From positions 1 through 34,167 of IMG/VR virus record IMGVR_UViG_3300007513_001452: a stretch of DNA of 34,167 nt; one strand, 5' to 3'. Positions 262 through 27,281 of the stretch are shown piece by piece. Positions within the stretch are counted from its first letter, which is position 1, and every line of letters begins with the position of its first letter. The notes under the pieces are model-generated. The model was not told the origin of the DNA, ran no database searches, and was given only the letters and a program-made list of their open reading frames with translations. A program made the translations under genes and the position numbers. Source of the stretch: a virus.

Positions 262-2158
262 TATGTCCATTTTACAGGAGTATATTCATAGATCAAGATA
301 TGCGCGATGGTTGCCTGAAGACGGAAGACGCGAAACCTGGGGAGAAACTGTTGACCGATATGTGGATTTCTTTGAGAATCATATAAAGGAAAATACAAAG
401 GGTTCTATCAAGGGCATACGGAACGATATTCGTAGTGCAATCTTTAATATGGAGGCAATGCCCTCCATGCGCTCATTGATGACTGCTGGCCCGGCATTGG
501 AACGAGAGAATATTGCCGGATATAATTGTGCATTTATTGCTGTTGATTCTCCCCGTGCATTTGATGAAACTCTTTATATTCTTATGAATGGAACTGGGGT
601 CGGATTTACCGTAGAGACATTTCAGGTAGAGAAGATGCCAATGATTGCAGAGGAATTTTATGATACGGACACCACAATTGTTGTTGCCGACAGTAAGTTG
701 GGCTGGGCCAAAGCACTCAAAGAATTGGTGGCAATGCTCTATACAGGACAGGTTCCTAATATTGATACCTCTCATGTTCGTCCTGCGGGTTCCCCGTTGA
801 AGGTATTTGGAGGAAGGGCATCCGGTCCAGAACCTCTGTTAGAAACCTTTACTGCATTTATTAATACATTCAAAGCCGCAACGGGAAGACGATTGACCAC
901 TCTAGAATGCCATGACCTTATGTGCTGGGTGGCATCCTGTGTCGTGGTTGGTGGTGTTCGTCGTGCAGCATTGATTTCTCTTTCTGACTTGACGGACGAG
1001 CGAATGCGCCATGCCAAGACAGGGCAATGGTTCACCACAGAGAAGCATCGCTCATTTTCAAACAATTCGGCAGTCTATAAGGAAAAGCCTGACATTGGTG
1101 TCTTTATGGCAGAGTGGCTTTCCTTGTATAATTCAAAGAGCGGGGAGCGCGGCATTGTCAGTCGTGCAGCATTGAAGAAGAAGGTCATGGAAAATGAACG
1201 AAGAGATCCCGAACATGATTTCGGAGTCAATCCTTGTGGAGAGATTATCCTTCGACCAAAGGGATTCTGTAATTTGTCCGAGGTAGTGATTCGCTCTACG
1301 GACACAATGGCAGACTTGGAGCGAAAGGTTCGCATTGCGACCATAATTGGAACTCTTCAATCCACGCTGACCAAATTCAAGTATCTTTCTTCTGCATGGA
1401 CAAAGAATGCCGAAGAGGAACGGTTGCTCGGAGTCAGTCTTACTGGGATTCAGGATAATAAAATTACAAACGGAAAAGTAAAGGGCCTGGACGGAACTCT
1501 GGATATTCTCAAGCAGGTTGCCATTGATACAAATAAAGAATGGGCAGCAAAGCTGGGAATCCCACAGTCCACGGCAATCACGACCGTCAAGCCATCGGGA
1601 ACTGTCTCGGTTCTGGTGGATTCGGCCAGCGGAATTCATTCTCGATATGCCCCGTATTACATTCGGAATGTTCGTGCCGACAAGAAAGACCCGGTGAGTC
1701 AATTCATGATTGACTTTGGGGTTCCTGTAGAAGATGATGTTATTGCACCTGACCACAATCATGTTTTTTCTTTTCCTGTTGTGGCACCAAAGGATTCTGT
1801 AGTCACGGAAGATAGGACTGCCCTAGAACAATTAGAAATTTGGTTGACATACCGAAGGCATTGGTGCGAACACAATCCTTCGGTCACAGTTTCGGTGAAA
1901 GAGCATGAATGGATTGAAGTGGGCGCATGGGTCTATGAACATTTTGATGAATTGGGTGGTATTTCTTTCCTTCCTTTTACGGACCATATATACAAGCAGG
2001 CACCATTTATACCAATTACAAAGAAGGAATACGATGAACATAACTCAAAGATGCCAGAAAGTTTGGAATGGATTGCGCTCGGTGCCTATGAACAATCCGA
2101 CCAGACCACGGCATCTCAAACGCTTGCGTGTACAAGTGGAGCCTGTGAGATAATCTAA
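227..2158 (+). CDS. nrdJ: Adenosylcobalamin-dependent (class II) ribonucleoside-triphosphate reductase, monomeric type
   Basis: Reduces ribonucleotides to deoxyribonucleotides using a radical generated from coenzyme B12, giving oxygen-independent dNTP supply for phage DNA. The product is 643 aa, shorter than the about 739-aa Lactobacillus enzyme. The active-site set is visible: C101 in YNCAF, NPCGEI with C337 and E339, C348 in the FCNL segment, and the C-terminal redox pair C635-TSGA-C640 near the very end. The glycine-rich stretch NGTGVGF and the VKPSGTVS segment are also typical. The ATG at 227 is preceded by AGGGGA and overlaps thyX by 35 nt, implying coupled translation. The organisation (C-terminal CxxxxC, no separate small subunit) favours the monomeric RTPR family over the dimeric NrdJ family. 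The host must provide or import cobalamin. Confidence 0.95.
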   Translation: MTPKTTLQQQPDMSILQEYIHRSRYARWLPEDGRRETWGETVDRYVDFFENHIKENTKGSIKGIRNDIRSAIFNMEAMPSMRSLMTAGPALERENIAGYNCAFIAVDSPRAFDETLYILMNGTGVGFTVETFQVEKMPMIAEEFYDTDTTIVVADSKLGWAKALKELVAMLYTGQVPNIDTSHVRPAGSPLKVFGGRASGPEPLLETFTAFINTFKAATGRRLTTLECHDLMCWVASCVVVGGVRRAALISLSDLTDERMRHAKTGQWFTTEKHRSFSNNSAVYKEKPDIGVFMAEWLSLYNSKSGERGIVSRAALKKKVMENERRDPEHDFGVNPCGEIILRPKGFCNLSEVVIRSTDTMADLERKVRIATIIGTLQSTLTKFKYLSSAWTKNAEEERLLGVSLTGIQDNKITNGKVKGLDGTLDILKQVAIDTNKEWAAKLGIPQSTAITTVKPSGTVSVLVDSASGIHSRYAPYYIRNVRADKKDPVSQFMIDFGVPVEDDVIAPDHNHVFSFPVVAPKDSVVTEDRTALEQLEIWLTYRRHWCEHNPSVTVSVKEHEWIEVGAWVYEHFDELGGISFLPFTDHIYKQAPFIPITKKEYDEHNSKMPESLEWIALGAYEQSDQTTASQTLACTSGACEII

Positions 2159-2339: not shown

Positions 2340-2926
2340 CGGTTCTTGCCGGAATAGATTACTCGATGACTTCCCCTGCTCTGTGTGTCTTTGATACGAG
2401 AGATGGGAAATATTGTTTCGAGAATGTCGGTGTCTATTTTCGGTCAAATCTGGCAAGGTTTGAATTGTTCAAAGAAGGAAATGTCAATGGAGAAAATCAC
2501 AAACCTTTCAAGTGCGACATGGACCGATATGATGATATTAGCGATTGGGCTGTATCTATCTTGGATGGTGCGGGTGTCGAGAAGGTATTTTTAGAAGGAT
2601 ATTCATTTGGTTCAACTGGGAAGGTTTTTCACATTGCCGAGAACACGGCTATTTTGAAATATAATTTATGGGATTTAAATATAGATATTGAGATTTTGGC
2701 ACCCACGACGATCAAGAAGTTTGCGACAGGTTCGGGGCGTGCATCCAAGGAAAATATGTATGAGAAATTCTGCGAAGAGAATCCTTCGGCGGGGCTGCGG
2801 GAAACTTTGACTCCCAGGTCTTCAAATGTAATAAATCCGGTAAATGATATAGTGGATGCCTATTATATTTTAAAGTATGGGATATTTAATAATGGGAAAT
2901 CTGAAAAAAATGACCCGCCGGGTTGA
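2336..2926 (+). CDS. RuvC-like Holliday junction resolvase / RNase H-fold nuclease
   Basis: A 196-aa protein with the RNase H-fold acidic signature of RuvC-type resolvases: D8 in AGIDYS, E87 in FLEGYS, and the pair D171/D174 in NDIVDAYY near the C-terminus. In this family the acids bind two metal ions and cut branched DNA, which phages need before packaging and for recombination-dependent replication. The start is TTG at 2336, with a G-rich Shine-Dalgarno (AGGGGGG) ending about 7 nt upstream; no ATG lies in this frame nearby. It overlaps the zinc-ribbon gene by 4 nt. Its stop codon is embedded in the -35 box of the promoter at 2923. The family is clear; the exact substrate is inferred. Confidence 0.85.
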   Translation: MTVLAGIDYSMTSPALCVFDTRDGKYCFENVGVYFRSNLARFELFKEGNVNGENHKPFKCDMDRYDDISDWAVSILDGAGVEKVFLEGYSFGSTGKVFHIAENTAILKYNLWDLNIDIEILAPTTIKKFATGSGRASKENMYEKFCEENPSAGLRETLTPRSSNVINPVNDIVDAYYILKYGIFNNGKSEKNDPPG

Positions 2927-2950
2927 CATTGGGCGTTTGGTGCTTATAAT
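2923..2950 (+). promoter_or_regulatory. Sigma70-type promoter followed by a small 5' hairpin
   Basis: TTGACA at 2923-2928 and TATAAT at 2945-2950 are separated by 16 nt. Both hexamers are perfect consensus. The -35 overlaps the stop codon of the resolvase gene. Just downstream is CCCC-ATGA-GGGG (2954-2965), which would form a short hairpin at the very 5' end of the transcript. The -10 region and its surroundings (TTATAATAGGCCC) recur at 27199-27226 with the same 16-nt spacer. It should drive the small ORFans from 2978 onward, probably early and with host RNA polymerase. Confidence 0.88.
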
Positions 2951-2977
2951 AGGCCCCATGAGGGGGAAACTGTAGAC

Positions 2978-3145
2978 ATGGACCGCGACCTATATAATAA
3001 CATAAGGAATTTAATTAAAGATATTAAAAAGCAATTAGGAAATGACAATCCCGTGGCGGACTTCGTGGCAGCGGCGGTGGTTGAGAAATTAAATAGAGAT
3101 AAATTAAATATTTTTATTGAAGAAAAGGATATAGTTAAAAAATGA
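2978..3145 (+). CDS. Small hypothetical protein (55 aa)
   Basis: First gene after the promoter at 2923. The ATG at 2978 lies about 20 nt after the expected 5' hairpin, with GGGGGAAAC upstream. The 55 residues are charged and mostly predicted helical, with a lysine-rich N-terminal half (IKDIKK) and an alanine/valine patch (ADFVAAAVVEK). No known motif is visible. The stop TGA overlaps the next ATG (ATGA), so it is translationally coupled to the next small gene. It is a typical early phage ORFan; function unknown. Confidence 0.6.
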   Translation: MDRDLYNNIRNLIKDIKKQLGNDNPVADFVAAAVVEKLNRDKLNIFIEEKDIVKK

Positions 3146-3306
3146 AGCAGCAGGTCGGAGTAATTGTTCTAGGGGAAGGGATGAACGTAGAACCTTTCAA
3201 GCAGAGGTTTCGGGATCATTATGAGGATGTAGACCCGAAGGTTCGTAAGCCAATCAAATTGGCATTTGTAGAGAACGATGGTGCAATAGAGGTATGGGAG
3301 GAGTAG
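3142..3306 (+). CDS. Small hypothetical protein (54 aa)
   Basis: Begins in the ATGA overlap with the preceding gene and ends 4 nt before the next. The 54-aa product starts with a beta-like segment (QQVGVIVLGEG), then a basic/aromatic stretch (FKQRFRDHYED) and an acidic tail (VWEE). No signal peptide, membrane segment or known motif is visible. It belongs to the transcript from the 2923 promoter. Function is unknown. Confidence 0.58.
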   Translation: MKQQVGVIVLGEGMNVEPFKQRFRDHYEDVDPKVRKPIKLAFVENDGAIEVWEE

Positions 3307-3310
3307 TGTC

Positions 3311-3907
3311 ATGAAGACGTTGAAAGAGTCTATTCATGATGAAGAAATAACTTGGAATCATGTGATTAATGCCAAGACCAGAGACGAACTAAATGAAGTT
3401 TCTTTGGGTCGGGTGTATCAGCATATCAAGAAGGAGAAGTTGAGTTCATGGGCAATTCTTACTTCCTATCGGGATGAGAATAAGCCATCAAAAAACAAGT
3501 CAGACTTCAAGAGACTCCAGCAGCAGATTCGCTCTGCAAATCTTGGTTTCTTCAAGTTGGTCGGGCACGGGCAGGAAGAGGATGATGATGGAAACATTCA
3601 ATCCGTCAAGGAACCTTCTTTGTTTGTTCCCGGCATTAGTTATGATTTGGCAACCAAGTTGATGGATGAATACAATCAATTTGCAATTGTGTTTTCGGGG
3701 CCAGAGACGAATGATAAGATTTCTCTGGTAGAAAAGGGAGGAAAGCAGACGGATCTTGGCGGGTTCAAGCCCCAGAAGATTGCACAGTTTTATTCCAAGG
3801 TGAAAGGAAAGTCATTTGTTTTTGAATTGAAAGCCTCGACCATTAACGCGGCAAGGCTTTTGGTATTATCCGGTCGAGATATACCGGGTATAGATTACCC
3901 TATATAG
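3311..3907 (+). CDS. DUF3293-like protein of unknown function
   Basis: A 198-aa soluble protein. The central part reads WAILTSYRDEN, then N/L-rich helices (DFKRLQQQIRSANLGF), a glycine step with an acidic insertion (GHGQEEDDDG), EPSLFVPG, and later a Q-A segment (EYNQFAIVFSGPE). This order (Tyr/Asn start, paired Leu helices, EPS, fQxA) is what I recall of DUF3293 domains found in bacteria and phages, but it is a pattern match without an alignment. The N-terminus (MKTLKESIHDEEI) and basic C-terminal part are extra. GGAGGAG precedes the ATG at 3311. It is third in the small-gene transcript. Confidence 0.5.
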   Translation: MKTLKESIHDEEITWNHVINAKTRDELNEVSLGRVYQHIKKEKLSSWAILTSYRDENKPSKNKSDFKRLQQQIRSANLGFFKLVGHGQEEDDDGNIQSVKEPSLFVPGISYDLATKLMDEYNQFAIVFSGPETNDKISLVEKGGKQTDLGGFKPQKIAQFYSKVKGKSFVFELKASTINAARLLVLSGRDIPGIDYPI

Positions 3908-3995
3908 TATAGAGTAATCATTTAGTATGGTGCGTGAGTAGTGTTGGCATATTTGCGTACCTTTTTGAAAGCCAACGTAATGGAGAAACACTAAT

Positions 3996-4214
3996 ATGGC
4001 ATTTGCAACAAACTCTAAGACACGCAAGGTTGTGGACTATTTGGCAGAGGGACGGACCCTCACGCCAGCACAGGCAGAGGCTCGGTTCGGTATCAAGAAC
4101 ATGAGTGCCACCATGTCCACGATTCGGGACACGGTAGAAGCCTATGGTAACTGGGAAGTCACCAAGGATACTGCCAAGAATGGTTCCACCAAGTACGGCA
4201 TCGTCCGTGCCTAG
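3996..4214 (+). CDS. Stand-alone winged-helix/HTH protein
   Basis: A 72-aa basic protein consisting almost only of a helix-turn-helix: TRKVVDYLAEG, then LTPAQAEARFGIKN (helix-turn) and MSATMSTIRDTVEA (recognition helix), ending in a wing-like GSTKYGIV. Small proteins with this 'LTxxQAxxRFGIxNxxAT...R' pattern are common in T4-like marine phages; I know of no assigned function. A DNA-binding regulator is likely. It has GGAGAAAC upstream, an 88-nt leader that contains a GTTGGC...GCCAAC inverted repeat (3943-3948/3971-3976), and a strong terminator directly behind it, so it is a compact monocistronic unit. Confidence 0.75.
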   Translation: MAFATNSKTRKVVDYLAEGRTLTPAQAEARFGIKNMSATMSTIRDTVEAYGNWEVTKDTAKNGSTKYGIVRA

Positions 4215-4232
4215 TCTTAGGTAAACCAAACT

Positions 4233-4278
4233 GAATTGGGAGGGGGCTTTCGAGCCTCCTCCCAATTCGTGTTTTTTG
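4233..4278 (+). terminator. Strong intrinsic terminator before the glycan island
   Basis: A 16-bp stem (4233-4248 pairing with 4253-4268, one G-U pair) closes on a TTCG tetraloop and is followed by GTGTTTTTTG. This is a textbook rho-independent terminator and the strongest one in the window. It ends the winged-helix transcript, and the first glycan gene starts only 16 nt later. Confidence 0.95.
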
Positions 4279-4293
4279 ATTTGGAGAAAAATT

Positions 4294-5259
4294 ATGTCTG
4301 ATGACAATGAATTTGAACTTAAAATTGCTCCACCCGAAGAGAGAGAAGCTAAGGGAGGAAGTGAATTAATTTACAATCGTGTGTTGGATCGTCTTGATGA
4401 TGAGATTAAAGATGAATTCGTTATCATCATGCAAAGGGTTCGTGACCATCATTTGGATAATGATAAAAAGAAAATTCTTTGGCTGGAAGATCTTCCTGAA
4501 GACCCTGAGTCGCAACATCTAAAAGATCCTGAATCAAGAAAGCAATATTCTAAATTTGTTTTTCCGACTAATTGGGCCATGTGGGATTTTCATCAAAAAT
4601 TGGGGGTTCCTTACGAGGATTCTATTGTTATTCCGAATTGTATTGAACCAATTCCATTACACGAAAAGCCAAAGACAGACCAGAAGAAAATTATTTATTT
4701 TTCAACTCCTCATCGTGGATTGAATATTCTTGAATCTGTTGTTCGATTTATGGAAGATTCGAGAAATGATTTTGAGGTTGATGTATATTCTAGTTTTAAA
4801 ATTTACGGGAGAGATGAACAGGATGAATTGCCGGAGTTTCAGGATCTTTATGGAAGACTCGATGAACTTAAAAGCGTAACTATGCATGGGTCAGTTTCCA
4901 ATGACGAGATCCGAAAGGCATTGACTGAGACTCATATTCTTGCATATCCATCTAATTATAGGGAAACTTCTTGCCTTGTTGCCATCGAAGCAATGGCTGC
5001 CGGGTGTCTTGCAGTTGTTCCTAACTATGCTGCCCTGGCCGAAACCTGTAAAGATTTTTCCTATATGTATCAATGGCATCCGTCAATTCAAGAACATGCG
5101 GCGTCACATTATCATTATCTTTGTCATGCCTTGAATAATTTTTGGACGGACACAACCCAGGGAATATTGGATTTACAGACAGTTCATTATAATTATTTTT
5201 ATAGCATGGATATGTGTATGAATAAGTGGAATAGTCTTTTGACGAGTCTCAGGGATTAG
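4294..5259 (+). CDS. Glycosyltransferase, GT4-like (GT-B fold)
   Basis: A 321-aa putative retaining glycosyltransferase that would move a sugar from a nucleotide-sugar donor. The C-terminal donor half shows IIYFSTPHRGL (Rossmann strand), MHGSVSNDEI, and the EX7E-like pair E224/E232 in RETSCLVAIEAMAAG, which is diagnostic for GT4. The N-terminal acceptor domain is short and charged. The start is placed at ATG 4294, with TTGGAG 8 nt upstream; an earlier in-frame ATG at 4276 lies in the terminator U-tract and is unlikely. It is the first gene of the island, where base composition drops in G+C. Donor and acceptor cannot be read from sequence. Confidence 0.82.
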   Translation: MSDDNEFELKIAPPEEREAKGGSELIYNRVLDRLDDEIKDEFVIIMQRVRDHHLDNDKKKILWLEDLPEDPESQHLKDPESRKQYSKFVFPTNWAMWDFHQKLGVPYEDSIVIPNCIEPIPLHEKPKTDQKKIIYFSTPHRGLNILESVVRFMEDSRNDFEVDVYSSFKIYGRDEQDELPEFQDLYGRLDELKSVTMHGSVSNDEIRKALTETHILAYPSNYRETSCLVAIEAMAAGCLAVVPNYAALAETCKDFSYMYQWHPSIQEHAASHYHYLCHALNNFWTDTTQGILDLQTVHYNYFYSMDMCMNKWNSLLTSLRD

Positions 5260-5261
5260 TG

Positions 5262-5783
5262 ATGTGGGTGATTAAGGATGTCATTGAGAAAGAAAAACTT
5301 ATTGGTGTCTATAATAAATTAATCAATGAACCTTCTTGGTATTTGTCTCGCGGAAGTAATAGAGGAGATATCACAGCCGGAACCTTTCCGGGCATGAATA
5401 TATTAAATGGTGATGATGTTATTAGTTCTCATTGGTTGAATTATTTTGAATCTTTGTTACCAGATATAGATAATAAATGTAAAGACCAGTACGGATTTGG
5501 GTTGCCTGAAAATTTATTGAGAATTCATTTGGTTGCAAAGCAGGAAAATGCCAATGCAGAATTTCACATAGATATAGACAACCCGAAGGCAATGTCATTG
5601 ATTGGAATGTTAAGCCCTGTCTGGGAAGATTCGTGGGGAGGGGAGTTTTATTGCAATGATGAGAAGGTTAATCATTCTCCTGGTAGTTTTATTTTGATTA
5701 AGAGTAATCAATTGCATAATGGATTAGGCCCAAGAGTAAAGACTCCATATTGGAGAATTATTGTTAATTATATTTTGATATAG
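5262..5783 (+). CDS. 2-oxoglutarate/Fe(II)-dependent oxygenase
   Basis: A 173-aa double-stranded beta-helix oxygenase of the prolyl-4-hydroxylase-like type common in marine phages. Visible ligands: H102-x-D104 in EFHIDID, the distal H152 in NQLHNG, and R165 in YWRIIVNY for the 2OG carboxylate; WGGEFY is a family hallmark. Such enzymes hydroxylate proteins or small molecules. Inside a glycan cluster it may hydroxylate a sugar, an acyl group or an acceptor side chain; that part is inference. Start ATG 5262, with a GTG directly before it at 5259 as an alternative; AGGGA precedes. It nearly abuts the first glycosyltransferase. Confidence 0.85.
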   Translation: MWVIKDVIEKEKLIGVYNKLINEPSWYLSRGSNRGDITAGTFPGMNILNGDDVISSHWLNYFESLLPDIDNKCKDQYGFGLPENLLRIHLVAKQENANAEFHIDIDNPKAMSLIGMLSPVWEDSWGGEFYCNDEKVNHSPGSFILIKSNQLHNGLGPRVKTPYWRIIVNYILI

Positions 5784-5793
5784 GGAATTTGAA

Positions 5794-6696
5794 ATGAGAG
5801 CAATTGTAACAGGTGGTATGGGATTTATTGGAAGTAATTTGGTTGATTGTTTGATTGATGATGGCCATTCAGTTGTCGTGTTGGACAATATGTCAACGGG
5901 TCGCGTGGAATATGGAAACAAGAGTGCCGAGTTTCATCATGTGGATGTATGCGATTCTCTTCTGGATTACATTGATTTGTTCCGGGGCGTTGATGTGGTT
6001 TATCACATGGCTGCCAAGACAAATGTTTTGGAGTCAATTGAAAATCCATTGGAATATGATGAAACAAATGTGAGAGGGCTGTTTAATGTTCTTGATGTTT
6101 CTCGGCGGTCTGGAGTAGGGAGAGTTGTGTTTAGTTCTTCTTCTGCTGTCTACGGAAACGGCGACACCTATAGGTTGTCGGAAGTTAGTTCTTACCCAAA
6201 GCCCATAAGTCCATATGGGTATGGAAAACTCATGGGAGAATTGCATTGTAAGATGTTCAATGAGGTGTATCGTCTTAATGTGATTTCTTTGAGATATTTC
6301 AATGTCTATGGAGAGCGCCAGCCGACAGACGGAACATATTGCCCGGTAATTTCTGTGTTTGCAAGGCAGCGTCTTGAGGGCCATATGATGACCATTCGAG
6401 GAACTGGCGAACAGCGTAGAGATTATGTCCATGTTGGGGATGTAGTCAATGCAAATATGCTCGCGGCAGAATATGGTAATATTGATGCCGGGGTATATAA
6501 TATTGGAACAGGAATTGGAACTTCTGTGAATGATGTTGCCGATATGATTGGTGGCGAGAGAATTAATGTTGTTCCTGCAAAAGAACCCTATCGCTCTATT
6601 GCAGACAATAGTGCCGCCAAAAGAGGCTTGGGGTGGGAACCTACAGTAGACCTCAAAGATTGGATTGATGTCTATAAGGAAAAGATTGGATTGTAA
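5794..6696 (+). CDS. NAD-dependent nucleotide-sugar epimerase/dehydratase (GalE-like)
   Basis: A 300-aa extended short-chain dehydrogenase. TGGMGFIG (residues 6-13) binds NAD; SSSSAVYG (114-121) carries the catalytic Ser, and Y141-GYG-K145 the YxxxK pair; VYNIGTG is the usual substrate-domain motif. The C-terminus ends in LGWEPTVDLKDWI, typical of UDP-glucose/GlcNAc 4-epimerases and related 4,6-dehydratases. GalE/WbpP-like 4-epimerase activity is the best guess; a dehydratase would normally have the TDE motif, which I do not see. It supplies a nucleotide sugar for the glycosyltransferases that follow, with a 1-nt overlap into the next gene. Confidence 0.88.
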   Translation: MRAIVTGGMGFIGSNLVDCLIDDGHSVVVLDNMSTGRVEYGNKSAEFHHVDVCDSLLDYIDLFRGVDVVYHMAAKTNVLESIENPLEYDETNVRGLFNVLDVSRRSGVGRVVFSSSSAVYGNGDTYRLSEVSSYPKPISPYGYGKLMGELHCKMFNEVYRLNVISLRYFNVYGERQPTDGTYCPVISVFARQRLEGHMMTIRGTGEQRRDYVHVGDVVNANMLAAEYGNIDAGVYNIGTGIGTSVNDVADMIGGERINVVPAKEPYRSIADNSAAKRGLGWEPTVDLKDWIDVYKEKIGL

Positions 6697-7616
6697 TGAT
6701 TGATCGACTTGCAGTATTTATTCTGACATATCATAATCATAATCGAGAACAACTTGATAGGTGTCTGTGGTCTATTGAACAACAGGAGGGTATTGACTTT
6801 GAGCCTATTATCGTTGTGAACTCTACGGACGAAACCTATTTTCCGAAAGTGAAGGAATGGTTTGGGGATGATTATTCTGTCGTAGAAACCGAGAGCGATG
6901 GATACACGGGGAAGGGAACCAACTCTGTTCTTGAGTATTATCGGAACTCGTTGATTTCTGAATTCTCTCATATGTGTATTATTGATGGGGATGATTACTA
7001 TTACCCAATGGCATTTGATTTGATAAATCAGATACATGAAAAGTCAAATTTTGATTTCCTGAGCGGCATGGCATTCCATCCAGATTCCTTGAGAACCACG
7101 CCACCAAACGACCAACGCCCGGAAGTATCTTACAAAGAAGGCCGCTGGGTTTGGACTTTTGGCGACCTTCGGGTTTCTGTATATCCCTATTTGTTTTGGA
7201 TAAATGAAGGAAAACGAATTCCGGGGGGAGAGATAACATTATGCCTTTCTAACAAAGCCGCCGGAAATGAAACTCTGAAATGTCTTGAAGGTCCGAATCG
7301 TGTGGACGATTATTTCTTTCTTTTGAATGGAATTATTGCTCATATGAACAAAGAACTTGTTTTTGTCAGCACAGATTGTAATGACATATATATTTACGAT
7401 TGTACGGGAGACAGTATTACTCAGGGGGATCATAAATTTGACTCTGAGTTGGGTTGGCCGTTCGATACTGATGGGCTTGTTTTGTCGGAATCAACAAAGG
7501 AAAAATATAAGGTTCTTGAAGGAATTACGAGACAACATTTGCCCTATGTAACAATGCCACAGGTATGGAGCATAGATCAAAAAGTTGAATATTTAAAGGA
7601 AAATGATTTGTCATGA
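6696..7616 (+). CDS. Glycosyltransferase, GT2-like (GT-A fold), divergent
   Basis: A 306-aa protein beginning with RLAVFILTYHNHNREQLD, the GT2 N-terminal nucleotide-binding strand, then IIVVNST and a metal-binding DGDD at 97-100 (IIDGDDYYYP). The middle (SYKEGRWVWTFGD) and C-terminal part are not standard GT2, so the acceptor half is unusual. The start overlaps the previous stop by one base (TAATG), and the end overlaps the next gene by 4 nt. It is soluble, with no transmembrane segment. It probably transfers a sugar from an NDP donor to a cytoplasmic acceptor. Confidence 0.75.
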   Translation: MIDRLAVFILTYHNHNREQLDRCLWSIEQQEGIDFEPIIVVNSTDETYFPKVKEWFGDDYSVVETESDGYTGKGTNSVLEYYRNSLISEFSHMCIIDGDDYYYPMAFDLINQIHEKSNFDFLSGMAFHPDSLRTTPPNDQRPEVSYKEGRWVWTFGDLRVSVYPYLFWINEGKRIPGGEITLCLSNKAAGNETLKCLEGPNRVDDYFFLLNGIIAHMNKELVFVSTDCNDIYIYDCTGDSITQGDHKFDSELGWPFDTDGLVLSESTKEKYKVLEGITRQHLPYVTMPQVWSIDQKVEYLKENDLS

Positions 7617-8380
7617 ATACGCATTTTAAAATTATCATTCCGGCATATAATGTAGAAGATTGGATTGAGAATGCATTGATAAGTGTCATGAATCAAGATT
7701 ATGATGACTTTGAGTGTATTATTACCAACGATTGTTCTCAGGATAAGACTTCAGAAATAGTTCGTGATTTCATTTCTGATAACGAAGCCCAGGAATATTT
7801 TGTTCTTTATGAAAATGCAGAACGAAAATATGCGCTGTATAATATACATATGATGATTCAGGAAATGAATGCCGAGGATGAAGATGTGATTGTATGTCTT
7901 GACGGTGATGATTGGTTGAGCGGCGACAAGGTTCTCCCTCGATTGGATGAAATTTATGAAGAAGAAGATTGCTGGTTGACATACGGAAGTTATATGAGGT
8001 ATCCAGATGGTTGGGATTCTTCTTTTCATGTGTCTGAATATCCTCTGGAGATTAGAGAGTCTGGAGACTTCCGAAAAGATTTACAATGGAGAGCAAGTCA
8101 TCTCCGCTCGTTTAAATATAAGATTGCAAAACGATTAGAAGAATCAGATTTTCTCGATAAGGGCGGAAATTATTATCAGATGGCTTGGGATCAGGCTGTA
8201 ATGTTTCCGCTGATGGAAATGGCGTGTGAAAAGGTTCATTTTGTGCCGGAAACTCTTTATGTATATAATGATGATAATCCTATTAATGTGCATAAGATAG
8301 ATAGACAAAAACAAATTGAAGTGTCCGAAGAGATTCGAGCCAATCATGCCAAAAAAGAATCTTTGATTGGGGTAATATAA
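7613..8380 (+). CDS. Glycosyltransferase family 2
   Basis: A 255-aa GT-A glycosyltransferase with a classical GT2 layout: FKIIIPAYNVEDWIENAL, SVMNQDYDDFECIITND (the donor-base pocket), and the DxD metal site in CLDGDDW at 97-101. A C-terminal acceptor region with aromatic residues follows (FVPETLYVYNDDNP, a motif often seen at the end of GT2 domains). It lies back to back with another GT2-like gene, suggesting successive additions to one chain. There are no membrane segments, unlike GT2 enzymes of capsule synthases. Confidence 0.9.
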   Translation: MNTHFKIIIPAYNVEDWIENALISVMNQDYDDFECIITNDCSQDKTSEIVRDFISDNEAQEYFVLYENAERKYALYNIHMMIQEMNAEDEDVIVCLDGDDWLSGDKVLPRLDEIYEEEDCWLTYGSYMRYPDGWDSSFHVSEYPLEIRESGDFRKDLQWRASHLRSFKYKIAKRLEESDFLDKGGNYYQMAWDQAVMFPLMEMACEKVHFVPETLYVYNDDNPINVHKIDRQKQIEVSEEIRANHAKKESLIGVI

Positions 8381-8381
8381 A

Positions 8382-9299
8382 ATGAAAATTTTCTTTGACC
8401 ATGTTGATTGGAATTCTTCTGCCGGGCCGCATTGGTTTGCCGCAAAACTGGCGGTTGCAATGTCAAAAAAGGGCCACGAGATTACACACGATAATCCAGA
8501 TGTTCAATTGGCATTTGTTGAAATGACACAGCAAATGGATGGGGTTCCTTTGGTTCAGCGTCTTGATGGGATTTGGTATAACACCAAAACAAATTACAAG
8601 GCAATGAATGAACAGATTAAAAAAACATATGATGTCGCAGACGGAGTTGTTTTTCAGTCTAAGTTTGATCGAGATTTTATCATTCATCATTTTGGAGAAC
8701 CTAATAGATATGAAATAATTCATAATGGTGCAGACATGAATAATATTGAAAATATTCCAGAAGCAACTGGTTTGGATGCATATGAATCTATTTGGTGTTG
8801 TGCGTCAGATTGGAACAATGGGGATGGAACGCCGAGACATAACAAACGATTGAATGAAAATCTTAGATATTTTCAGGAACATTCTGGAGAAAAGGATCTT
8901 CTTTGTGTTGCCGGAGATGTTGGAAATATAGATAATCCAGATCCACAGAAAATTGTTTTTCTTGGAAATTTGGCGGTTCATAAATTAATTTCTCTTTATA
9001 AAAAGGCAGATTGGTTTGTTCATCTTGCAGCGCAAGACCATTGCCCAAACGTTGTGGTGGATGCAAAATCCTCTGGGTGTAGAATTGTATGTTCTGGCTC
9101 TGGGGGAACTCCAGAGATTGCAGGAAAAGATGCAATTATTATTGTTGACGAAAATGAGCATGGATATGATGCATGGGACTATAATGTTCCGACTACTTTG
9201 GATTTTTCACGAAGTATGAACGGTCATTATGAAGTGGACTTGTCAATAAATTTTGTGGCAGATAGGTATTTGGAGTTTTTGGAGAAGCAAATAAAATGA
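8382..9299 (+). CDS. Glycosyltransferase, GT4-like (GT-B fold)
   Basis: A 305-aa GT-B enzyme. The N-terminal domain has KIFFDHVDWNSSAGPHWFAA, then a conserved VVFQSKFDRDFI and IIHNGADMN (the 'NGvD' segment of GT4). The donor domain includes IVFLGNLAVHKLISLYKKADWFVHLA and DHCPNVVVDAKSSGC, which takes the place of the usual E-x7-E loop (the first Glu is not conserved), followed by GGTPEIAG. One base separates it from the preceding gene, and its stop overlaps the next start. It is clearly related to GT4, with an atypical catalytic loop. Confidence 0.85.
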   Translation: MKIFFDHVDWNSSAGPHWFAAKLAVAMSKKGHEITHDNPDVQLAFVEMTQQMDGVPLVQRLDGIWYNTKTNYKAMNEQIKKTYDVADGVVFQSKFDRDFIIHHFGEPNRYEIIHNGADMNNIENIPEATGLDAYESIWCCASDWNNGDGTPRHNKRLNENLRYFQEHSGEKDLLCVAGDVGNIDNPDPQKIVFLGNLAVHKLISLYKKADWFVHLAAQDHCPNVVVDAKSSGCRIVCSGSGGTPEIAGKDAIIIVDENEHGYDAWDYNVPTTLDFSRSMNGHYEVDLSINFVADRYLEFLEKQIK

Positions 9300-9901
9300 G
9301 AATGTTAAAAGATTATGAAACCTATGATGATTATGTGGAGCATCAAAAAGAGAAAACTTTGGACCCGGTGAGGCGAAAGAAGTGGTTGGGGGAAGAGTGG
9401 GAATTAAAATTAAATGGATTCACCGAGATTTTTCAAAGGTGTAAAGACATATTAAAGCCGGGGATGAAGGCTCTTTGTATTGGTGCCCGCACAGGCCAAG
9501 AAGTGGTTTCAATGATAGATTTGGGGATTGATGCAATTGGAATTGATCTTGTTCCAAATGAACCTCATGTGATTTTGGGAGACATGCATAATTTAGATTT
9601 TGATGATGCGTCTTTTGATTTTGTATTTACGAATGTTTTTGACCATTCATTGCATCCAGATAAGATGGTTTCTGAGATAGAACGAGTTTTGATTCCCGGT
9701 GGATTCTTTCTTTTACAGATGCAGGTACAGCAGGAAATTGACGCCTATGCAGAGAATGAAATAGATTCGGTTGATGGTGATATTATACCTTTATTTAAAG
9801 GTTCAGATGTATTTGTCAATACAGGAATGCCGAGAAATTTTGCCGGAATGAATTGGGAGATTTTGGTAAAGAAGAGGAAACAAGAAGATGCAGAGAAGTG
9901 A
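9296..9901 (+). CDS. Class I SAM-dependent methyltransferase
   Basis: A 201-aa Rossmann methyltransferase (Methyltransf_11-like). Motif I is ALCIGARTGQEV at 59-70, D84 in GIDLV would bind the SAM ribose, and the post-motifs FDFVFTNVFDHSLHPDKM and EIERVLIPGGFFLLQ are typical. An N-terminal helix with DPVRRKKWLGEEW precedes the core. It is likely to methylate a sugar hydroxyl or another small acceptor in the glycan pathway; the substrate is unknown. The start overlaps the previous stop by 4 nt (ATGA). Confidence 0.85.
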   Translation: MRMLKDYETYDDYVEHQKEKTLDPVRRKKWLGEEWELKLNGFTEIFQRCKDILKPGMKALCIGARTGQEVVSMIDLGIDAIGIDLVPNEPHVILGDMHNLDFDDASFDFVFTNVFDHSLHPDKMVSEIERVLIPGGFFLLQMQVQQEIDAYAENEIDSVDGDIIPLFKGSDVFVNTGMPRNFAGMNWEILVKKRKQEDAEK

Positions 9902-10544
9902 ATTGATATGCGATATTGATGAGCTAGAGGTTCCTGAAGAATATCAGAGAATATGGAATGATATTAATCTTCCTATTCAGGAAGAGAAAGGCCGAACTCA
10001 TGATTTGTCACAAGATGAATTAGCCAAGTGTCTGTCGGAACTATCACGCAGAGGATATTATTTGGTGTCCATTGCAGAGCAGTTTGGTGCAAAGAACATT
10101 GCAGAGGTAGGCACCGCCCAGGGCTGGCAATTTTATACGTTTGCTCACTATGCAGCCAAGGTTGATGGATTTGTCTGGAGTTGTGATATTCGTGATGTAC
10201 GAGATAAGGATTATGCTCAAAAATATTCAGACGTAACAGATTTTGTTTCTGGAACGAGTGAACAGATGGCAGAGACAATTAAGTTTTCTGGCGAAAAAAT
10301 TGATATGTTTTATATCGACGGCTGGCATGAACGTGGCTGGGTATTGCAGGATGTGGAACGACTAAAGGAATTTCAGTCCGATGATCCTATTTGGATTTTT
10401 GATGACTATGATGAACGGTTTGGGTGTTCTTTTGATATAGATGAAATCTGTGAACAGATACCCGACCATTATATATATCGGGTAGGAAATGCAGCCAGTG
10501 GCCAACCCAATCATCAGGTTGCCGTGTTTGGGAGGATTGAATGA
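9888..10544 (+). CDS. Class I SAM-dependent methyltransferase (Methyltransf_24-like)
   Basis: A 218-aa protein with motif I IAEVGTAQGWQFY (71-83) and an MFYIDGWHERGWVLQDVERL-type segment, in which the DGWH with a downstream aromatic/aspartate loop is the hallmark of Methyltransf_24 and cephalosporin-hydroxylase-like proteins that occur in glycan clusters. WIFDDYDERFG supplies further acids. It overlaps the previous gene by 14 nt. An O-methyltransferase acting on a sugar is the likeliest role. Confidence 0.8.
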   Translation: MQRSELICDIDELEVPEEYQRIWNDINLPIQEEKGRTHDLSQDELAKCLSELSRRGYYLVSIAEQFGAKNIAEVGTAQGWQFYTFAHYAAKVDGFVWSCDIRDVRDKDYAQKYSDVTDFVSGTSEQMAETIKFSGEKIDMFYIDGWHERGWVLQDVERLKEFQSDDPIWIFDDYDERFGCSFDIDEICEQIPDHYIYRVGNAASGQPNHQVAVFGRIE

Positions 10545-11503
10545 ATATTCTGTTTTATTCTAGTCATGATGATATTTCTGCGGGGTCGTATAGAATTTGG
10601 GTTCGGGATTTGAATGATTATTTTAATGATGTTGGAGTTTCTTCTAAAGTTGCAATTCGCGACCTTCCCGATCTTACTAATTTTGATGTTGTTATTTTTG
10701 GAAAGTCTGATTATGTGTTGGCATCAAAAATTAAAAAGTCTTATTCAAATAAAAAGATTGGTGTTATTAATCATCGCGCTGATGTCAATATTGATGTTGA
10801 TTTTATAATTGTTGGTTCTATTGAAGAACAGGCAAGTCTTTCGTATTATGATAATGTGTTTTTGTTTCCTTTGATTGAGAAAATGTATATTGATTCTTCT
10901 TTATATAAGAATCATCAACAGGCAGACACGTTAAGAATAGGGTTTCATGGCCATCCGCCACATATTTCTAAATTTGTACTGGGAATGAATGCAGCCATTG
11001 AAGAGTTATCAAAACAAATTTCTGTAGAATTTTTAGTTGCCTCGTCTGGCCCGATTAATAATACATTTCTTCCAAATGCAAATGTTATTGGAACACAATG
11101 GAATTTTGATACAATTGCAGATTCCTTATTGTCTTGTGATATTGGCGTAGTTCCGAACGCAGTAATTAGCGGGGTAGATTCAGAGGCACCAAATCAGGGA
11201 TTATTTGATACGGACTATAGTATGAGGTTTAAAAATAAATCAAACGCCGGCCGTGCATTTGTATTTCATCAGTTAGGGATTCCTGTGGTTGCTGACATTA
11301 CTCCAAGCCATTTTCATGTTATGGGAAATCCAGATTGTGGTTTTTTGGTTGCCGACAAGGCTGGGTGGTACAAGGCACTTTTGAAGTTGACTAACTATAG
11401 GACGAGGCAGGAAATTGCTGATAATGCAAAGAAAGAATTTGATAGATTATATGACCCTCACGATTGGGCTCGAAAACTTTATAGGGAAATAGAGGAGATA
11501 TAA
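10541..11503 (+). CDS. Putative glycosyltransferase, GT-B fold
   Basis: A 320-aa protein that opens with MNILFYSSHDDISAGSYR, the Rossmann strand and loop of GT-B enzymes, followed by DVVIFGKSDYV and later RIGFHGHPPHISKF, VIGTQWNFDTI, and LLSCDIGVVPNA. The segment SNAGRAFVFHQLGIPVVAD is equivalent to the donor-binding loop of GT4. No EX7E is seen, so assignment is by overall pattern. It overlaps the previous gene by 4 nt and is followed one base later by a GT-A enzyme. Confidence 0.68.
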   Translation: MNILFYSSHDDISAGSYRIWVRDLNDYFNDVGVSSKVAIRDLPDLTNFDVVIFGKSDYVLASKIKKSYSNKKIGVINHRADVNIDVDFIIVGSIEEQASLSYYDNVFLFPLIEKMYIDSSLYKNHQQADTLRIGFHGHPPHISKFVLGMNAAIEELSKQISVEFLVASSGPINNTFLPNANVIGTQWNFDTIADSLLSCDIGVVPNAVISGVDSEAPNQGLFDTDYSMRFKNKSNAGRAFVFHQLGIPVVADITPSHFHVMGNPDCGFLVADKAGWYKALLKLTNYRTRQEIADNAKKEFDRLYDPHDWARKLYREIEEI

Positions 11504-11504
11504 A

Positions 11505-12251
11505 ATGAGTCAAGGAGTTTTATATATTGCGTTTGGTGATAATTTTTTAAAGGAACTTACGTTATCTGCCGAGTCGGTTAAGCGATTTTGTCCTGATTTG
11601 CATATTACAGTATTTTCAGATAAGCCTGTTGACTCTGAATTTATTGATGAGTGTAGAATAATTGAAGTAAATCATCTAAGACCTAAGATTGATTATATAA
11701 TGCACGCCCCGTATGAGAGAACTTTGTTTTTGGATACGGATACGATTATTGATTATGACATCGGTGATATGTTTGATATTCTTGATAATTTTGATATTGC
11801 CCTGGCTCATGATTTGGCCAGAAAGCGAAAGAAGTATTCTGACACGATACCCGAATATGGTGAAATTCCTTATTCATTTTCGGAGTTGAATACGGGCGTC
11901 ATTGCATTTAAGAAGAATGAGAAGACGGACCTCCTTTGGGAGCGTTGGCGTGAAAATTTCTATAAGTGGTATGATATTGTGCCTTGGGATCAGCCGTCAT
12001 TTCGGGTTTCTTTGTGGCAGACCACATTAGAAGATGATTTAAAGTTGTATGTATTTCCAGTTGAATACAATATCCGAAGTAAAGCCAATCGAGAGAAGAA
12101 CCGGCTAATGCATGATGAGTTTGGAGATGAACATTTGACCCCCCGCATTTATCATATGCACGCAGACCCGAGAATTAATCAAGGAACGTATGAGGTTGAA
12201 AGTGTGGAACAGGCATTGGAATTTTGTAAGAAAAATTTTGTGGAGTATTGA
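11505..12251 (+). CDS. GT-A glycosyltransferase (GT8 / nucleotide-diphospho-sugar transferase-like)
   Basis: A 248-aa protein of the nucleotide-diphospho-sugar transferase superfamily. GVLYIAFGDNFLKELTLSA is the N-terminal donor strand, RTLFLDTDTII contains the metal-binding D77-T-D79, FSELNTGVIAFKKNE is the conserved 'NtGvi.f' segment of this group, and PWDQPSFR follows. This layout resembles GT8 and DUF-type transferases. The stop is followed after 1 nt by a GTG start, so it is tightly coupled to the sialyltransferase-like gene. Confidence 0.82.
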   Translation: MSQGVLYIAFGDNFLKELTLSAESVKRFCPDLHITVFSDKPVDSEFIDECRIIEVNHLRPKIDYIMHAPYERTLFLDTDTIIDYDIGDMFDILDNFDIALAHDLARKRKKYSDTIPEYGEIPYSFSELNTGVIAFKKNEKTDLLWERWRENFYKWYDIVPWDQPSFRVSLWQTTLEDDLKLYVFPVEYNIRSKANREKNRLMHDEFGDEHLTPRIYHMHADPRINQGTYEVESVEQALEFCKKNFVEY

Positions 12252-12252
12252 T

Positions 12253-13047
12253 GTGAATATTTTTGATGAATTGATACATAATAAGACAGTTGCTCTTGTG
12301 GGCCCTGCTGCGTATATGGTTGGTTCTGGTTATGGTAATGAAATAGATTCTCATGATGTTGTGGTTCGTCTTAATCGGGGAATTGAATGTGTTGAAGAAC
12401 ATTCAGAGGATGTTGGTTTTTTGACTGATGTTTTATATTCGTGTTTAATAGAAAAACCAGCCAACGCTGGAAAAGTAGATCCAGAATATCTTTTTGATTG
12501 TGGAGTGCAGTATGTTGTTACTCCCCCGAACTCCGATTTTCAAGGAGTAGCCCGTGTTACTGATTTTCATGAGTTAGTTAATCTAAAGATGGTTGATAAA
12601 ATTCTTGAAAATATTCCAATGAGAATTATTGACCATATGTTTCATACAAAATTAGCAAAGGATGTTAGCTGTAAACCTAATACTGGGTTTCTTGCTATAT
12701 ATGATTTGTTAAGATTTAATCCGTCGCGTCTTTCTGTTTATGGTTTTAGTTTTTATTTGGATGGTTTTATTTCTGGAATAAAGTCGGGCGTAGAAGAGGA
12801 ACAAAATTTAACAGAAGAACAATTTGCAAACCAATGTTTTAATTCAAAGAGACATGTGCAGAAGAATATGTGGGAATATGCCAAAAAAACTCTTATAGAT
12901 ACTCCTGTAGTTTCTTTAGATCCTGTTTTATCTTTTATTTTGAATATGGAAACATTTGACAAAGGTGAGTTTTTAAAATATGAAAATATTCATTCCAATA
13001 AAAGAGAATTCTCAGAGAGTTCCAAAAAAGAATTTCAGAACTCTTAA
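12253..13047 (+). CDS. GT29 (sialyltransferase)-like glycosyltransferase
   Basis: A 264-aa protein that resembles family GT29, which transfers sialic acid from CMP-Neu5Ac and is best known from eukaryotes. Residues 13-43 read as a sialylmotif L: VALVGPAA, GSGYGNEIDSHD, VVVRLNRG. A motif-S-like block follows at 141-155 (KPNTGFLAIYDLL) with VYGFSF just after, and H201 in KRHVQKNMWEYA could serve as the motif-VS histidine. There is no N-terminal anchor, unlike Golgi enzymes. The start is GTG 12253, one base after the previous stop; no in-frame ATG is near. The 3' end runs 68 nt into the next gene, so the last about 22 residues are dual coding or a lost-stop tail. The true donor could be any CMP-ulosonic acid. 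Confidence 0.75.
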   Translation: MNIFDELIHNKTVALVGPAAYMVGSGYGNEIDSHDVVVRLNRGIECVEEHSEDVGFLTDVLYSCLIEKPANAGKVDPEYLFDCGVQYVVTPPNSDFQGVARVTDFHELVNLKMVDKILENIPMRIIDHMFHTKLAKDVSCKPNTGFLAIYDLLRFNPSRLSVYGFSFYLDGFISGIKSGVEEEQNLTEEQFANQCFNSKRHVQKNMWEYAKKTLIDTPVVSLDPVLSFILNMETFDKGEFLKYENIHSNKREFSESSKKEFQNS

Positions 13048-13630
13048 TGGAGTTCCTCTTTACAAACACACGCTATACAAACTCAAAGAATTTGATGTTT
13101 ATGTTGATACCGATAGTGAATCTCTTGAACAAGAGATCCGTGAAGATGTCAAATGTAAACATGTAATTCCTTATCAGAGGTCTTTATCGTTAATCGGAGA
13201 TGATGTATCTGTTTGTGATTTGATTGATGATTTTGTTTTTCGCTATGGGTCTGAAGAAAATAATATTTGTCAGCTACATGTTACAAGCCCATTTTTGGAT
13301 GTCAAAATTTTAAAGAATGCCATGGCCATGCTCGACCGGGGATATGATTCTGTGGTGTCTTGTAATCAAGTTCAATCAAGATTTTGGAGAAAAGAGTCAT
13401 ATGGATATTGCCCGGTAAATCATAACCCGGTTAAACTAGAGCAGACTCAGGACTTGCCTATTTTTTATGAGGAGAATTCTGTCTTCTATATAATTAATGT
13501 TGATTTGTTTCGTAAGACAAAAATGAGAATTGGTATGAATCCCTATTTTTATCCATTAAGTTTTCCGATTAATCTGGACATTGACACAGAGGATGATTGG
13601 GAATTGGTAACAAAGGTAATAAAAAAATGA
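12980..13630 (+). CDS. CMP-sugar synthetase-like cytidylyltransferase (NeuA/KdsB family)
   Basis: A 216-aa nucleotidyltransferase that would activate a 2-keto-3-deoxy acid sugar with CTP. The N-terminus IPIKENSQRVPKKNFRTLNG is the signature loop of acylneuraminate cytidylyltransferases (R...KN...G.PL), followed by VYVDTDSESL (the 'vsTDs' motif), QLHVTSPFLD (the LQPTSP equivalent), and a C-terminal NLDIDTEDDWE that holds the metal-binding 'DIDt.eD'. The order of motifs is complete. Its position between a GT29-like transferase and an aldolase supports CMP-sialic, CMP-Kdo-like or other CMP-ulosonic sugar production. Which acid is used cannot be told. Confidence 0.85.
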   Translation: MKIFIPIKENSQRVPKKNFRTLNGVPLYKHTLYKLKEFDVYVDTDSESLEQEIREDVKCKHVIPYQRSLSLIGDDVSVCDLIDDFVFRYGSEENNICQLHVTSPFLDVKILKNAMAMLDRGYDSVVSCNQVQSRFWRKESYGYCPVNHNPVKLEQTQDLPIFYEENSVFYIINVDLFRKTKMRIGMNPYFYPLSFPINLDIDTEDDWELVTKVIKK

Positions 13631-14361
13631 GATTATTATGGCAACAGATTCCATCTACAATTATTTCTGAGATTTTTTCTTCTGTTGATAATTTTGATGG
13701 TGTAGTAATAGACACCGAGCATAGTCCTTTTAATGTGGAAACATTATTTTCTTGCATTCAGGTGGTCAAGTTATCTGGAAAGAAATGTTTTGTTCGATTG
13801 TCATATTTGGATAAAACATTGACCAAGATTTGTTTGGATGCCGGATGTGATGGGTTGATTTTTTCTACGGTTGAAACTGCATCTCAAGCAAAGGATATAA
13901 TTTCTTATTGTAGGTATCCGGGTAAAAATTATTTTATTGAGGGAGGCTCTTGCGTAAGCCATTCTCCCCCACATGGAAGACGCGGCCAGGGACTGGTGCG
14001 AGAAAATGGTTGGGGCGTGCAGCCATTGGGAGAACATAGACCAATATTGATAGGTCAAATTGAAACCGAGGTGGGGGTTAATAAAATTGAAGAGATTGTC
14101 CAAACAAATGCATTCGATATGTTTTTGATTGGGCCATATGACCTAAGTGCAAGCCTTGGTTGTGTTGGAGACTTTGAGGATTATAGATATAAAGAAGCCA
14201 TAGATAAAATAAAAGAGAGTGTTTCAGAAAGCTCTTTGGGTATTCATATTCCTAGAAATGTAGAATCTAGTATTGGTAATTATTCTAATTTTGGCTTTGT
14301 TGCCCTTGGTATGGATACCACGTTTTTACTGGAGAGAATAGAGGAGATTGGCAATGGATAA
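13627..14361 (+). CDS. HpcH/HpaI-family aldolase
   Basis: A 244-aa metal-dependent (beta/alpha)8 aldolase that joins pyruvate to an aldehyde, or cleaves the product. Start ATG 13627 is in the ATGA overlap with the CMP-synthetase gene. Visible active-site elements: H32 in DTEHSPF, R57 in FVRLS, the SPPHGRRG loop (family: YPPxGxRG), metal ligands E146 in QIETEVG and D172 in GPYDLSASLG. Classical members make 2-keto-3-deoxy acids in aromatic catabolism or sugar-acid metabolism. Next to a cytidylyltransferase, a biosynthetic role in making an ulosonic-type acid is an attractive inference. All key residues seem intact. Confidence 0.88.
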   Translation: MRLLWQQIPSTIISEIFSSVDNFDGVVIDTEHSPFNVETLFSCIQVVKLSGKKCFVRLSYLDKTLTKICLDAGCDGLIFSTVETASQAKDIISYCRYPGKNYFIEGGSCVSHSPPHGRRGQGLVRENGWGVQPLGEHRPILIGQIETEVGVNKIEEIVQTNAFDMFLIGPYDLSASLGCVGDFEDYRYKEAIDKIKESVSESSLGIHIPRNVESSIGNYSNFGFVALGMDTTFLLERIEEIGNG

Positions 14362-15391
14362 ATTTAAAGAAGAGATTATGAAAAATGCGCCGTCACCATT
14401 TCTTGAGATCGAAAATATCGAAAAGAAATTTTATCAATTGGTGATTAGTGATGAATGGAATGAATTGCAAGCCAAATTTAATGATTGCCATGATATTTAT
14501 GTTCTTGGTCATGGTGGAAATTTAGCTATTGCGGACCATGCAGCAATTGATATTTCAAGACTTAGTAATGGGACAAAAAATGCAATATGTCCCGCCAGCG
14601 GTGTTGTAGTTACTTCATATATTAATGATACCAATTGGGATCAATGGATGGTACAATGGTTGAGAAATGTAACTTCCGGGAAAACTATGGAACAAAAACG
14701 AAAATCATTGATTTTGGGATATTCTTCATCTGGAACATCTAGGGATTTGATTAAGGCATTTCAATGGGGATATTCTAATGAATTGCAATTAGGAACAATT
14801 ACATCATTTCCTTTTACAGAAAGAATACCAACTTTGACAGAGGTTGCTATGGGATGTAATTTTTATCATACTGCCGAGGTACTATCATTATTTCTTCAAT
14901 ATCAGTTGACGCATGGTTCGGGCAAAGCGTGCCCGCCAATTGGAGGCAATCGTCCAGAGGATATTGCTCATTATGATTCTGATATAGTTCCTGAAATTAG
15001 AGAGCATAGTTTTTCAGATGAGACAAAAAATATTGCATTGGATTTTGATGGAGTAATTCATAAAAACTCAAAGGGATATTATGATGGAACAATATATGAT
15101 ACTCCTGTGGATGGTGCCAAAGAAGCATTAAAGAAATTGTCGAAGACTTATGATGTTGTTATTTTTACTGTTAAGGCCAAGCCAGACAGGGGGCTGGTTA
15201 ACGGTAAGACGGGCACCCAATTGGTTTGGGAGTGGCTCAAGAAATATGATATGGATAGGTATGTGACAAAAGTTACTTCAGAAAAGCCTCGGGCTGTCGC
15301 ATACATTGACGATAAATCAATTCATTTTGATAATTGGAAAATGTGTTTAGATAATTTAGGGAGTATTGAAAATGAAAGATCCGTTACATAA
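14354..15391 (+). CDS. Fusion of SIS sugar isomerase (GmhA-like) and HAD phosphatase domains
   Basis: A 345-aa two-domain protein. Residues about 15-200 form a SIS domain: VLGHGGNLAIADHAA (51-65, the GmhA 'GNGGSAxxAxH' equivalent) and LGYSSSGTSRDL (121-132, the phosphosugar-binding Ser/Thr loop). Residues about 226-345 form a HAD domain: motif I D230-F-D232-GV, T272 for motif II, K311, and the DD pair 319-320. GmhA isomerises sedoheptulose-7-P and GmhB removes a phosphate in ADP/GDP-heptose synthesis; here similar steps may be joined in one chain, but the HAD part is nucleotidase-like rather than a clear GmhB. ATG 14354 is preceded by GAGGAG; it overlaps the aldolase by 8 nt. Confidence 0.82.
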   Translation: MDKFKEEIMKNAPSPFLEIENIEKKFYQLVISDEWNELQAKFNDCHDIYVLGHGGNLAIADHAAIDISRLSNGTKNAICPASGVVVTSYINDTNWDQWMVQWLRNVTSGKTMEQKRKSLILGYSSSGTSRDLIKAFQWGYSNELQLGTITSFPFTERIPTLTEVAMGCNFYHTAEVLSLFLQYQLTHGSGKACPPIGGNRPEDIAHYDSDIVPEIREHSFSDETKNIALDFDGVIHKNSKGYYDGTIYDTPVDGAKEALKKLSKTYDVVIFTVKAKPDRGLVNGKTGTQLVWEWLKKYDMDRYVTKVTSEKPRAVAYIDDKSIHFDNWKMCLDNLGSIENERSVT

Positions 15392-16418: not shown

Positions 16419-17035
16419 AAAAAGCACTTTTGATTAGCCCGCACCCAGATGATGCTTTTATTGGATGCTCTGGTTTTGTTGTTAAAAATGAGCATAACTT
16501 TGACATTGATGTGTGTTGTTTTGCTACAAAAAATATAAATCCGTCTGAAGAGACTCGCAAATATGAAGAGCTTTCTTCTTGGAAAATTATTAACAAAAAA
16601 GTTAATGTTTCTTTTTTTGATGGTGATGATACGAAATTATTTAGGAATCAAAATAAAATCATAAGTCATATTGAGAATCTAGTCACCCAAAATGAGTATG
16701 ACTATGTGTTTACTCCATACCCAGAAGATACCCATCAGGATCATAGAACTGTTTCTGAAGCAACATTGTCGGCATGTAGGTATCAGAATAAGATATTATT
16801 TTATGAGACACCTTCGACTACCGCGTTTCATCCCAATCTTTTTGTTCAGTTGAGTGGTGATGAAGCAAACCAAAAGATGTTGGGTTCCTGTGAGTATGAG
16901 TCTCAGATTCTTGGTTCTGAGAAATATCAAATTACATTAGAAGAATACATTCAGGCTAAACTTTTGAGTAATGGTGCAATGAGTCGTGTTTGTAAATATG
17001 CAGAAGGCTTTGTTCTTTATAAGGAAGTAATATGA
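16415..17035 (+). CDS. PIG-L/LmbE-family zinc deacetylase
   Basis: A 206-aa deacetylase. The zinc site is visible as ISPHPDDAFIG (H10-P-D12-D13) and the second half THQDHRTVSEA (H107, H110), both hallmarks of the family. Members remove N-acetyl groups from GlcNAc-containing substrates (GlcNAc-PI, mycothiol and bacillithiol precursors) and also act in sugar-antibiotic pathways. In this cluster it may free an amino sugar, for example ahead of N-formylation. ATG 16415 follows GGAG and overlaps the previous stop (ATGA). It is shorter than many members (about 220-250 aa) but complete in motifs. Confidence 0.9.
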   Translation: MKKALLISPHPDDAFIGCSGFVVKNEHNFDIDVCCFATKNINPSEETRKYEELSSWKIINKKVNVSFFDGDDTKLFRNQNKIISHIENLVTQNEYDYVFTPYPEDTHQDHRTVSEATLSACRYQNKILFYETPSTTAFHPNLFVQLSGDEANQKMLGSCEYESQILGSEKYQITLEEYIQAKLLSNGAMSRVCKYAEGFVLYKEVI

Positions 17036-19216: not shown

Positions 19217-19217
19217 T

Positions 19218-27226: not shown

Positions 27227-27281
27227 AGGCCCAGGATGAGAGAATTGTCTCTCGACCACCTCAGATAAAGGATACACAGAA

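Follow-up and report, generated by a model that had tools for sequence, protein, structure and literature searches.

The window analysed here, the whole stretch of 34,167 nucleotides of the IMG/VR record IMGVR_UViG_3300007513_001452, is a 34-kb piece of the genome of an uncultured virus. Among its genes are those of a B12-type ribonucleotide reductase, a RuvC-like resolvase and a phage exonuclease, together with a long run of glycosyltransferase and sugar-metabolism genes, called the sugar island below (Table 1). One promoter element (P1) follows the resolvase gene, whose stop codon TGA (2924-2926) sits within the -35 box, and a second one (P2) lies beyond the island, upstream of the gene of a phrog_11903 protein. 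DNA resembling the P1 region was not found in isolated phages; the isolates nearest by the phrog_11903 protein include Caulobacter phage Cr30, Stenotrophomonas phage DLP6 and Ochrobactrum phage vB_OspM_OC. Since the fragment is incomplete, the number of promoter copies reported below is a lower bound.

Table 1. Coordinates of the features of the window and, in the last rows, of the homologous terminators of relatives.
Feature	Position	Strand	Remark
P1 -35 box TTGACA	2923-2928	+	read directly
P1 spacer, 16 nt	2929-2944	+	GTTTGG at 2935-2940, common to P1, P2 and P3
P1 -10 box TATAAT	2945-2950	+	
P1 discriminator AGGCCCC and predicted start	2951-2958	+	discriminator G+C-rich, 2951-2957; start predicted at C2957 or A2958
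P1 palindrome CCCC-ATGA-GGGG	2954-2965	+	
P1 unit	2978-4214	+	
55-aa ORF	2978-3145	+	
54-aa ORF	3142-3306	+	
DUF3293 protein	3311-3907	+	weak SAM-lyase similarity
72-aa ORF	3996-4214	+	constant in relatives
Intrinsic terminator, strong	4232-4269	+	17 pairs, T tract; first island gene 24 nt downstream
Sugar island	4294-27091	+	23-kb run
P2, TTGACT-16-TATAAT-AGGCCC	27199-27232	+	TTGACT 27199-27204, 16 nt, TATAAT 27221-27226, then AGGCCC; upstream of 27282
P2 5'-proximal hairpin TGAGAGA-ATTG-TCTCTCG	27237-27254	+	7 pairs, about -10 kcal/mol
phrog_11903 protein	27282		
Exonuclease gene	29218		further downstream of P2 than phrog_11903
PyrR-like terminator element, L029	3321-3376		homologue of window 4232-4269
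PyrR-like terminator element, L032	6377-6434		homologue of window 4232-4269
PyrR-like terminator element, L033	6162-6216		homologue of window 4232-4269
PyrR-like terminator element, L034	6181-6236		homologue of window 4232-4269
PyrR-like terminator element, L129, L135 and L136	equivalent place		homologue of window 4232-4269

The full elements read TTGACA-16-TATAATAGGCCCC at 2923 and TTGACT-16-TATAATAGGCCC at 27199, and outside the hexamers 16 of 22 positions are identical (binomial P about 8e-6). A search of the window with the pattern TTGAC-N17-TATAATAGGCC returned exactly two perfect matches, against about 1e-5 to 2.6e-5 expected from composition alone, and three matches when up to three mismatches were allowed, against 0.24 in shuffled sequences. 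In a generic promoter scan of the window, sites were no commoner than in shuffles, and it is therefore the shared extended element, and not the consensus score alone, that distinguishes P1 and P2. No further copy of this element was found inside the sugar island, where weaker sigma70-like matches (the best, 11/12, at 17570) occur at the frequency seen in shuffles. A preliminary description of this DNA had reported two near-identical promoters with a 16-nt spacer, the stop codon within the first -35 box and the lack of copies in the island, and direct reading and the pattern search bore out all three. The start predicted for P1 in Table 1 follows from the distance that usually separates the -10 box from +1, 6-8 nt.

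When 2.9 million viral contigs were scanned for the extended motif, ten contigs were returned, with only three distinct sites, two of which are those of the window. The third site (P3, TTGACACCTCTTGTTTGGTGATTATAATAGGCCCCATG) is of the same type as P1 and P2 and is found in six related contigs that encode sheath, tube, portal and major capsid genes, where it lies between a tail-tube-like gene and the genes of UvsY, a UvsW-like helicase, a gp55-type late sigma factor and an SbcD-like nuclease (uvsY-uvsW-gp55-gp47). It is a further copy of the kind that the preliminary description had suggested looking for before early genes. In a 69.7-kb contig of this structural type, P3 is the only strong site of its kind, at the uvsY end, and TATAAATA is present before the genes of gp18, gp22 and gp23. 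No sequence is shared between the P3 contigs and the window. Contigs of both the window type and the structural type, both with the motif, occur in sample 3300013114, and from this co-occurrence and the shared element we infer that they probably belong to one phage. Beside P3, in L122 (8811-9314) and L048 (5366-5869), a second tail-tube-like gene lies downstream of the major capsid gene; L048, the companion structural contig, also carries an aspartate carbamoyltransferase gene (597-1598, minus strand; TIGR00670, 304.6 bits) downstream of uvsY-uvsW-gp55-gp47.

Relatives were gathered with three proteins of these contigs, namely the resolvase, the first glycosyltransferase and the UvsW-like helicase, and they keep promoters of this kind at corresponding places. 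A promoter with a 16-nt spacer directly follows the resolvase stop in L029, L032, L033 and L034; L135, L136, L138 and L140 have one in the equivalent position ahead of the first glycosyltransferase. Seven near-clade loci among L058-L066 have one ahead of uvsY, and G011, G012 and G013 have one ahead of phrog_11903. The resolvase identity of relatives with a promoter at the P1 position is 63-90%; in phages at a greater distance, the spacer of the uvsY promoter mostly measures 17 nt. Across the relatives the boxes are kept while the spacer and the discriminator drift, the latter to ATGGG or ATACA. The orthologous promoters were taken as the best matches in defined stretches, a choice that favours consensus hexamers. 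Copies within a lineage may drift in step, as suggested by a promoter identity of 0.68 within lineages against 0.48 for orthologues between lineages (permutation of lineages, P 0.007), a comparison on a small sample of four lineages, three of which depend on sample-based links for at least one copy. In L030, tRNA genes behind the resolvase (5641-5713 and 6859-6932) replace the P1 promoter.

P1, P2 and P3, the three near-identical copies found so far, are very probably early promoters of the T4 type that use host sigma70 and carry an extended element specific to the phage. P1 and P2 belong to an uncultured phage of the T4 superfamily, and P3 probably to the same one. The promoters look functional and are of a kind already known, here in an uncultured phage group. 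The early, sigma70-type character given to these promoters in the preliminary description is supported by the near-consensus boxes of P1 and P2, at a spacing within the 16-18 nt of T4-type early promoters, by the conserved position, by the P3 copy, by their placement before non-structural genes and absence from late operons, and by the existence of distinct TATAAATA late promoters. Previous studies of T4-like phages agree with this assignment. Near-consensus sigma70 boxes before non-structural genes are likewise seen in the early promoters of T4, RB49, RB69, 44RR and Aeh1, together with a phage-specific extended consensus, C-rich positions -3 to -1 and separate TATAAATA late promoters with gp55 (PMC1524935, PMC2988021). 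Early consensuses are phage-specific among T4-like phages, and those of RB69, RB49 and 44RR favour C at -3 to -1 (Nolan 2006, PMC1524935); the element here has CCC immediately before the expected start. In contrast, the -35 box is TTGAC(A) here and GTTTAC there, the spacer has 16 nt, far fewer copies were seen, and the TGn extended -10, typical of T4 itself, is missing from its usual place, with TG shifted one base too far upstream at P1 and CG instead of TG at P2. However, the conservation of the GT-rich stretch varies among T4-like phages (PMC1524935), and therefore TGn does not define the class. A T4 middle promoter, with a MotA box TGCTTTA centred at -30 replacing the -35 box, was discarded in view of the perfect TTGACA of P1, and a T4 late promoter because TATAAATA at -13 to -6 is absent from P1 and P2.

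As early promoters of this type, P1 and P2 would be recognised by host RNA polymerase through TTGAC(A), the 16-nt spacer and TATAAT, with transcription starting at about A2958 and A27233, respectively, and the GTTTGG of the spacer and the AGGCCC discriminator would form the extended early-promoter consensus of the lineage. P2 would then serve phrog_11903 and the DNA-metabolism genes that follow it, and uvsY-uvsW-gp55-gp47 would be read from P3. Such a conserved consensus would describe a group of uncultured T4-superfamily phages, and a lineage-wise drift of the extended element would be relevant to the question of how early promoters stay alike within a phage.

It had also been proposed that the two promoters bracket the island from outside, which is true here and in G011, G012 and G013, but the terminator ends the P1 unit earlier. 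Because this strong terminator stands before the sugar island, P1 most likely drives a short accessory operon of small genes that closes there, so that the island would by default not be read from P1. A terminator-like hairpin lies at the same place in near relatives. The first genes of the unit vary, since L032 lacks the gene at 3311, L033 and L034 have a different small gene and L030 has the tRNA genes. The 72-aa gene does not vary, nor does the first glycosyltransferase. The protein encoded at 3311-3907, present in some relatives only, matches DUF3293 above the cut-off and SAM lyase weakly, below the cut-off; its predicted structure has a pLDDT of 42.5, too low to be used, and searches of PDB and NCBIfam gave no relative. 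The gene is possibly an early anti-restriction gene.

The relatives G011, G012 and G013 share a common frame of reductase, resolvase, P1, small genes, terminator, glycosyltransferase, variable island, P2 and phrog_11903. The first glycosyltransferase is conserved and the rest of the island varies between relatives, with a size of about 11 kb in G011, about 10-11 kb in G012 and about 19-20 kb in G013. One pair was informative, G012 and G013 (islands at 31586-41562 and 4725-23280, respectively), in which the surroundings of P1 are identical, the left flank is 92% and the right flank 98% identical, and the islands are different. On the left, similarity breaks off where the first glycosyltransferase ends, about 1.5 kb past P1. 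The right break is about 105 nt ahead of P2 and coincides with the stop of the last island gene. In this pair, the promoters thus stay in place next to the exchanged DNA and are not its breakpoints. They also place the borders of a hypervariable sugar-gene island relative to transcription units.

These breaks also bear on the possibility that P1 and P2 form a mobile regulatory cassette of the PeSL type, whose promoter and stem-loop copies provide recombination homology and would have carried the island in. PeSL cassettes, as far as they are described in the titles of the original reports and in one citing paper (Arbiol 2010; Comeau 2014; via PMC4503421), are repeated early promoters beside a palindrome in phages of the T4 superfamily, and the likeness extends to the near-identical copies on either side of a variable island, again in a T4-like phage, to the exchange of the small genes directly behind P1 between relatives and to the greater promoter identity within lineages reported above. 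However, both breaks lie away from P1 and P2, which argues against such a cassette. By the same partial description, an early promoter with an adjacent conserved stem-loop or terminator and an exchange of modules with breakpoints at the cassette would be expected, whereas here the stem-loop is not conserved, neither P1 nor P2 has a T tract, the copies are few and the breakpoints of the one informative pair fall outside the promoters. We therefore consider the cassette unlikely.

The terminator behind P1 is itself variable. In the window it is plain, while in L029, L032, L033, L034, L129, L135 and L136 it has a longer stem with an asymmetric bulge (AAGTAA), and its loop reads CAGAGA or CAGTGA. 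Covariation supports this structure, since 93% of the cells are paired and eight pairs have changed on both sides; the covariation score is 0.456, whereas shuffles gave 0.242 and sliding gave no more than 0.201. In its apical part the element is similar to the PyrR binding site (Rfam RF00515), though its 21.5 bits fall short of the gathering score, 54; a PyrR element was not listed in the Rfam search of L032, and no phosphoribosyltransferase (PF00156, which covers PyrR) was found in the phage contigs. We treat this PyrR-like loop as a lead only. Along this line, P1 would head a gated leader for the island, composed of an early promoter, exchangeable accessory genes and, in place of a plain stop, an attenuator whose PyrR-like loop, present in relatives, was lost in the phage of the window, and the extended element would evolve in concert, read by a phage or host factor. 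We give this arrangement as little weight as the mobile cassette; if true, read-through into the nucleotide-sugar and glycosyltransferase genes would follow the supply of pyrimidine nucleotides.

Regarding the hairpins, the preliminary description had them recur with the promoters and protect the 5' ends of the mRNAs. The promoter element does recur at 27199, but the hairpin does not, and P2 is followed by a different one (Table 1). At P1, the four-pair stem can form only in an RNA that begins no more than 4 nt past the -10 box, and since 6-8 nt is expected, its 5' arm would be largely promoter DNA, likely untranscribed, and the hairpin is probably not formed in the RNA. Protection is thus unsupported at the first site and only possible at the second. 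Good hairpins near the expected 5' end are also present in the relatives L032 and L062, but no strong hairpin is apparent by eye after P2 of G012 and G013, the P2 hairpin is not conserved, and the fold of +1 to +45 at 13 promoters was no better than in shuffles (Stouffer z -0.71). A general role of leader hairpins in stabilising early mRNAs therefore seems rather improbable, slightly more so than the cassette or the gated leader.

The rrn P1 promoters of Escherichia coli have a 16-nt spacer and a G+C-rich discriminator. The 16-nt spacer, constant in the near clade, and the GGCCC after the -10 box could accordingly be read as an imitation of host stable-RNA promoters that ties firing to host growth rate, but the discriminator drifts in relatives and the extended motif had only two matches in 84,980 prokaryote genomes, near the chance number, coding-like and in unrelated MAGs, with no host promoter of this motif among them, which makes this imitation about as improbable as protection by hairpins. 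A GGGCC/GGCCC inverted repeat flanking the promoter, absent at other sites, was seen by eye at a few.
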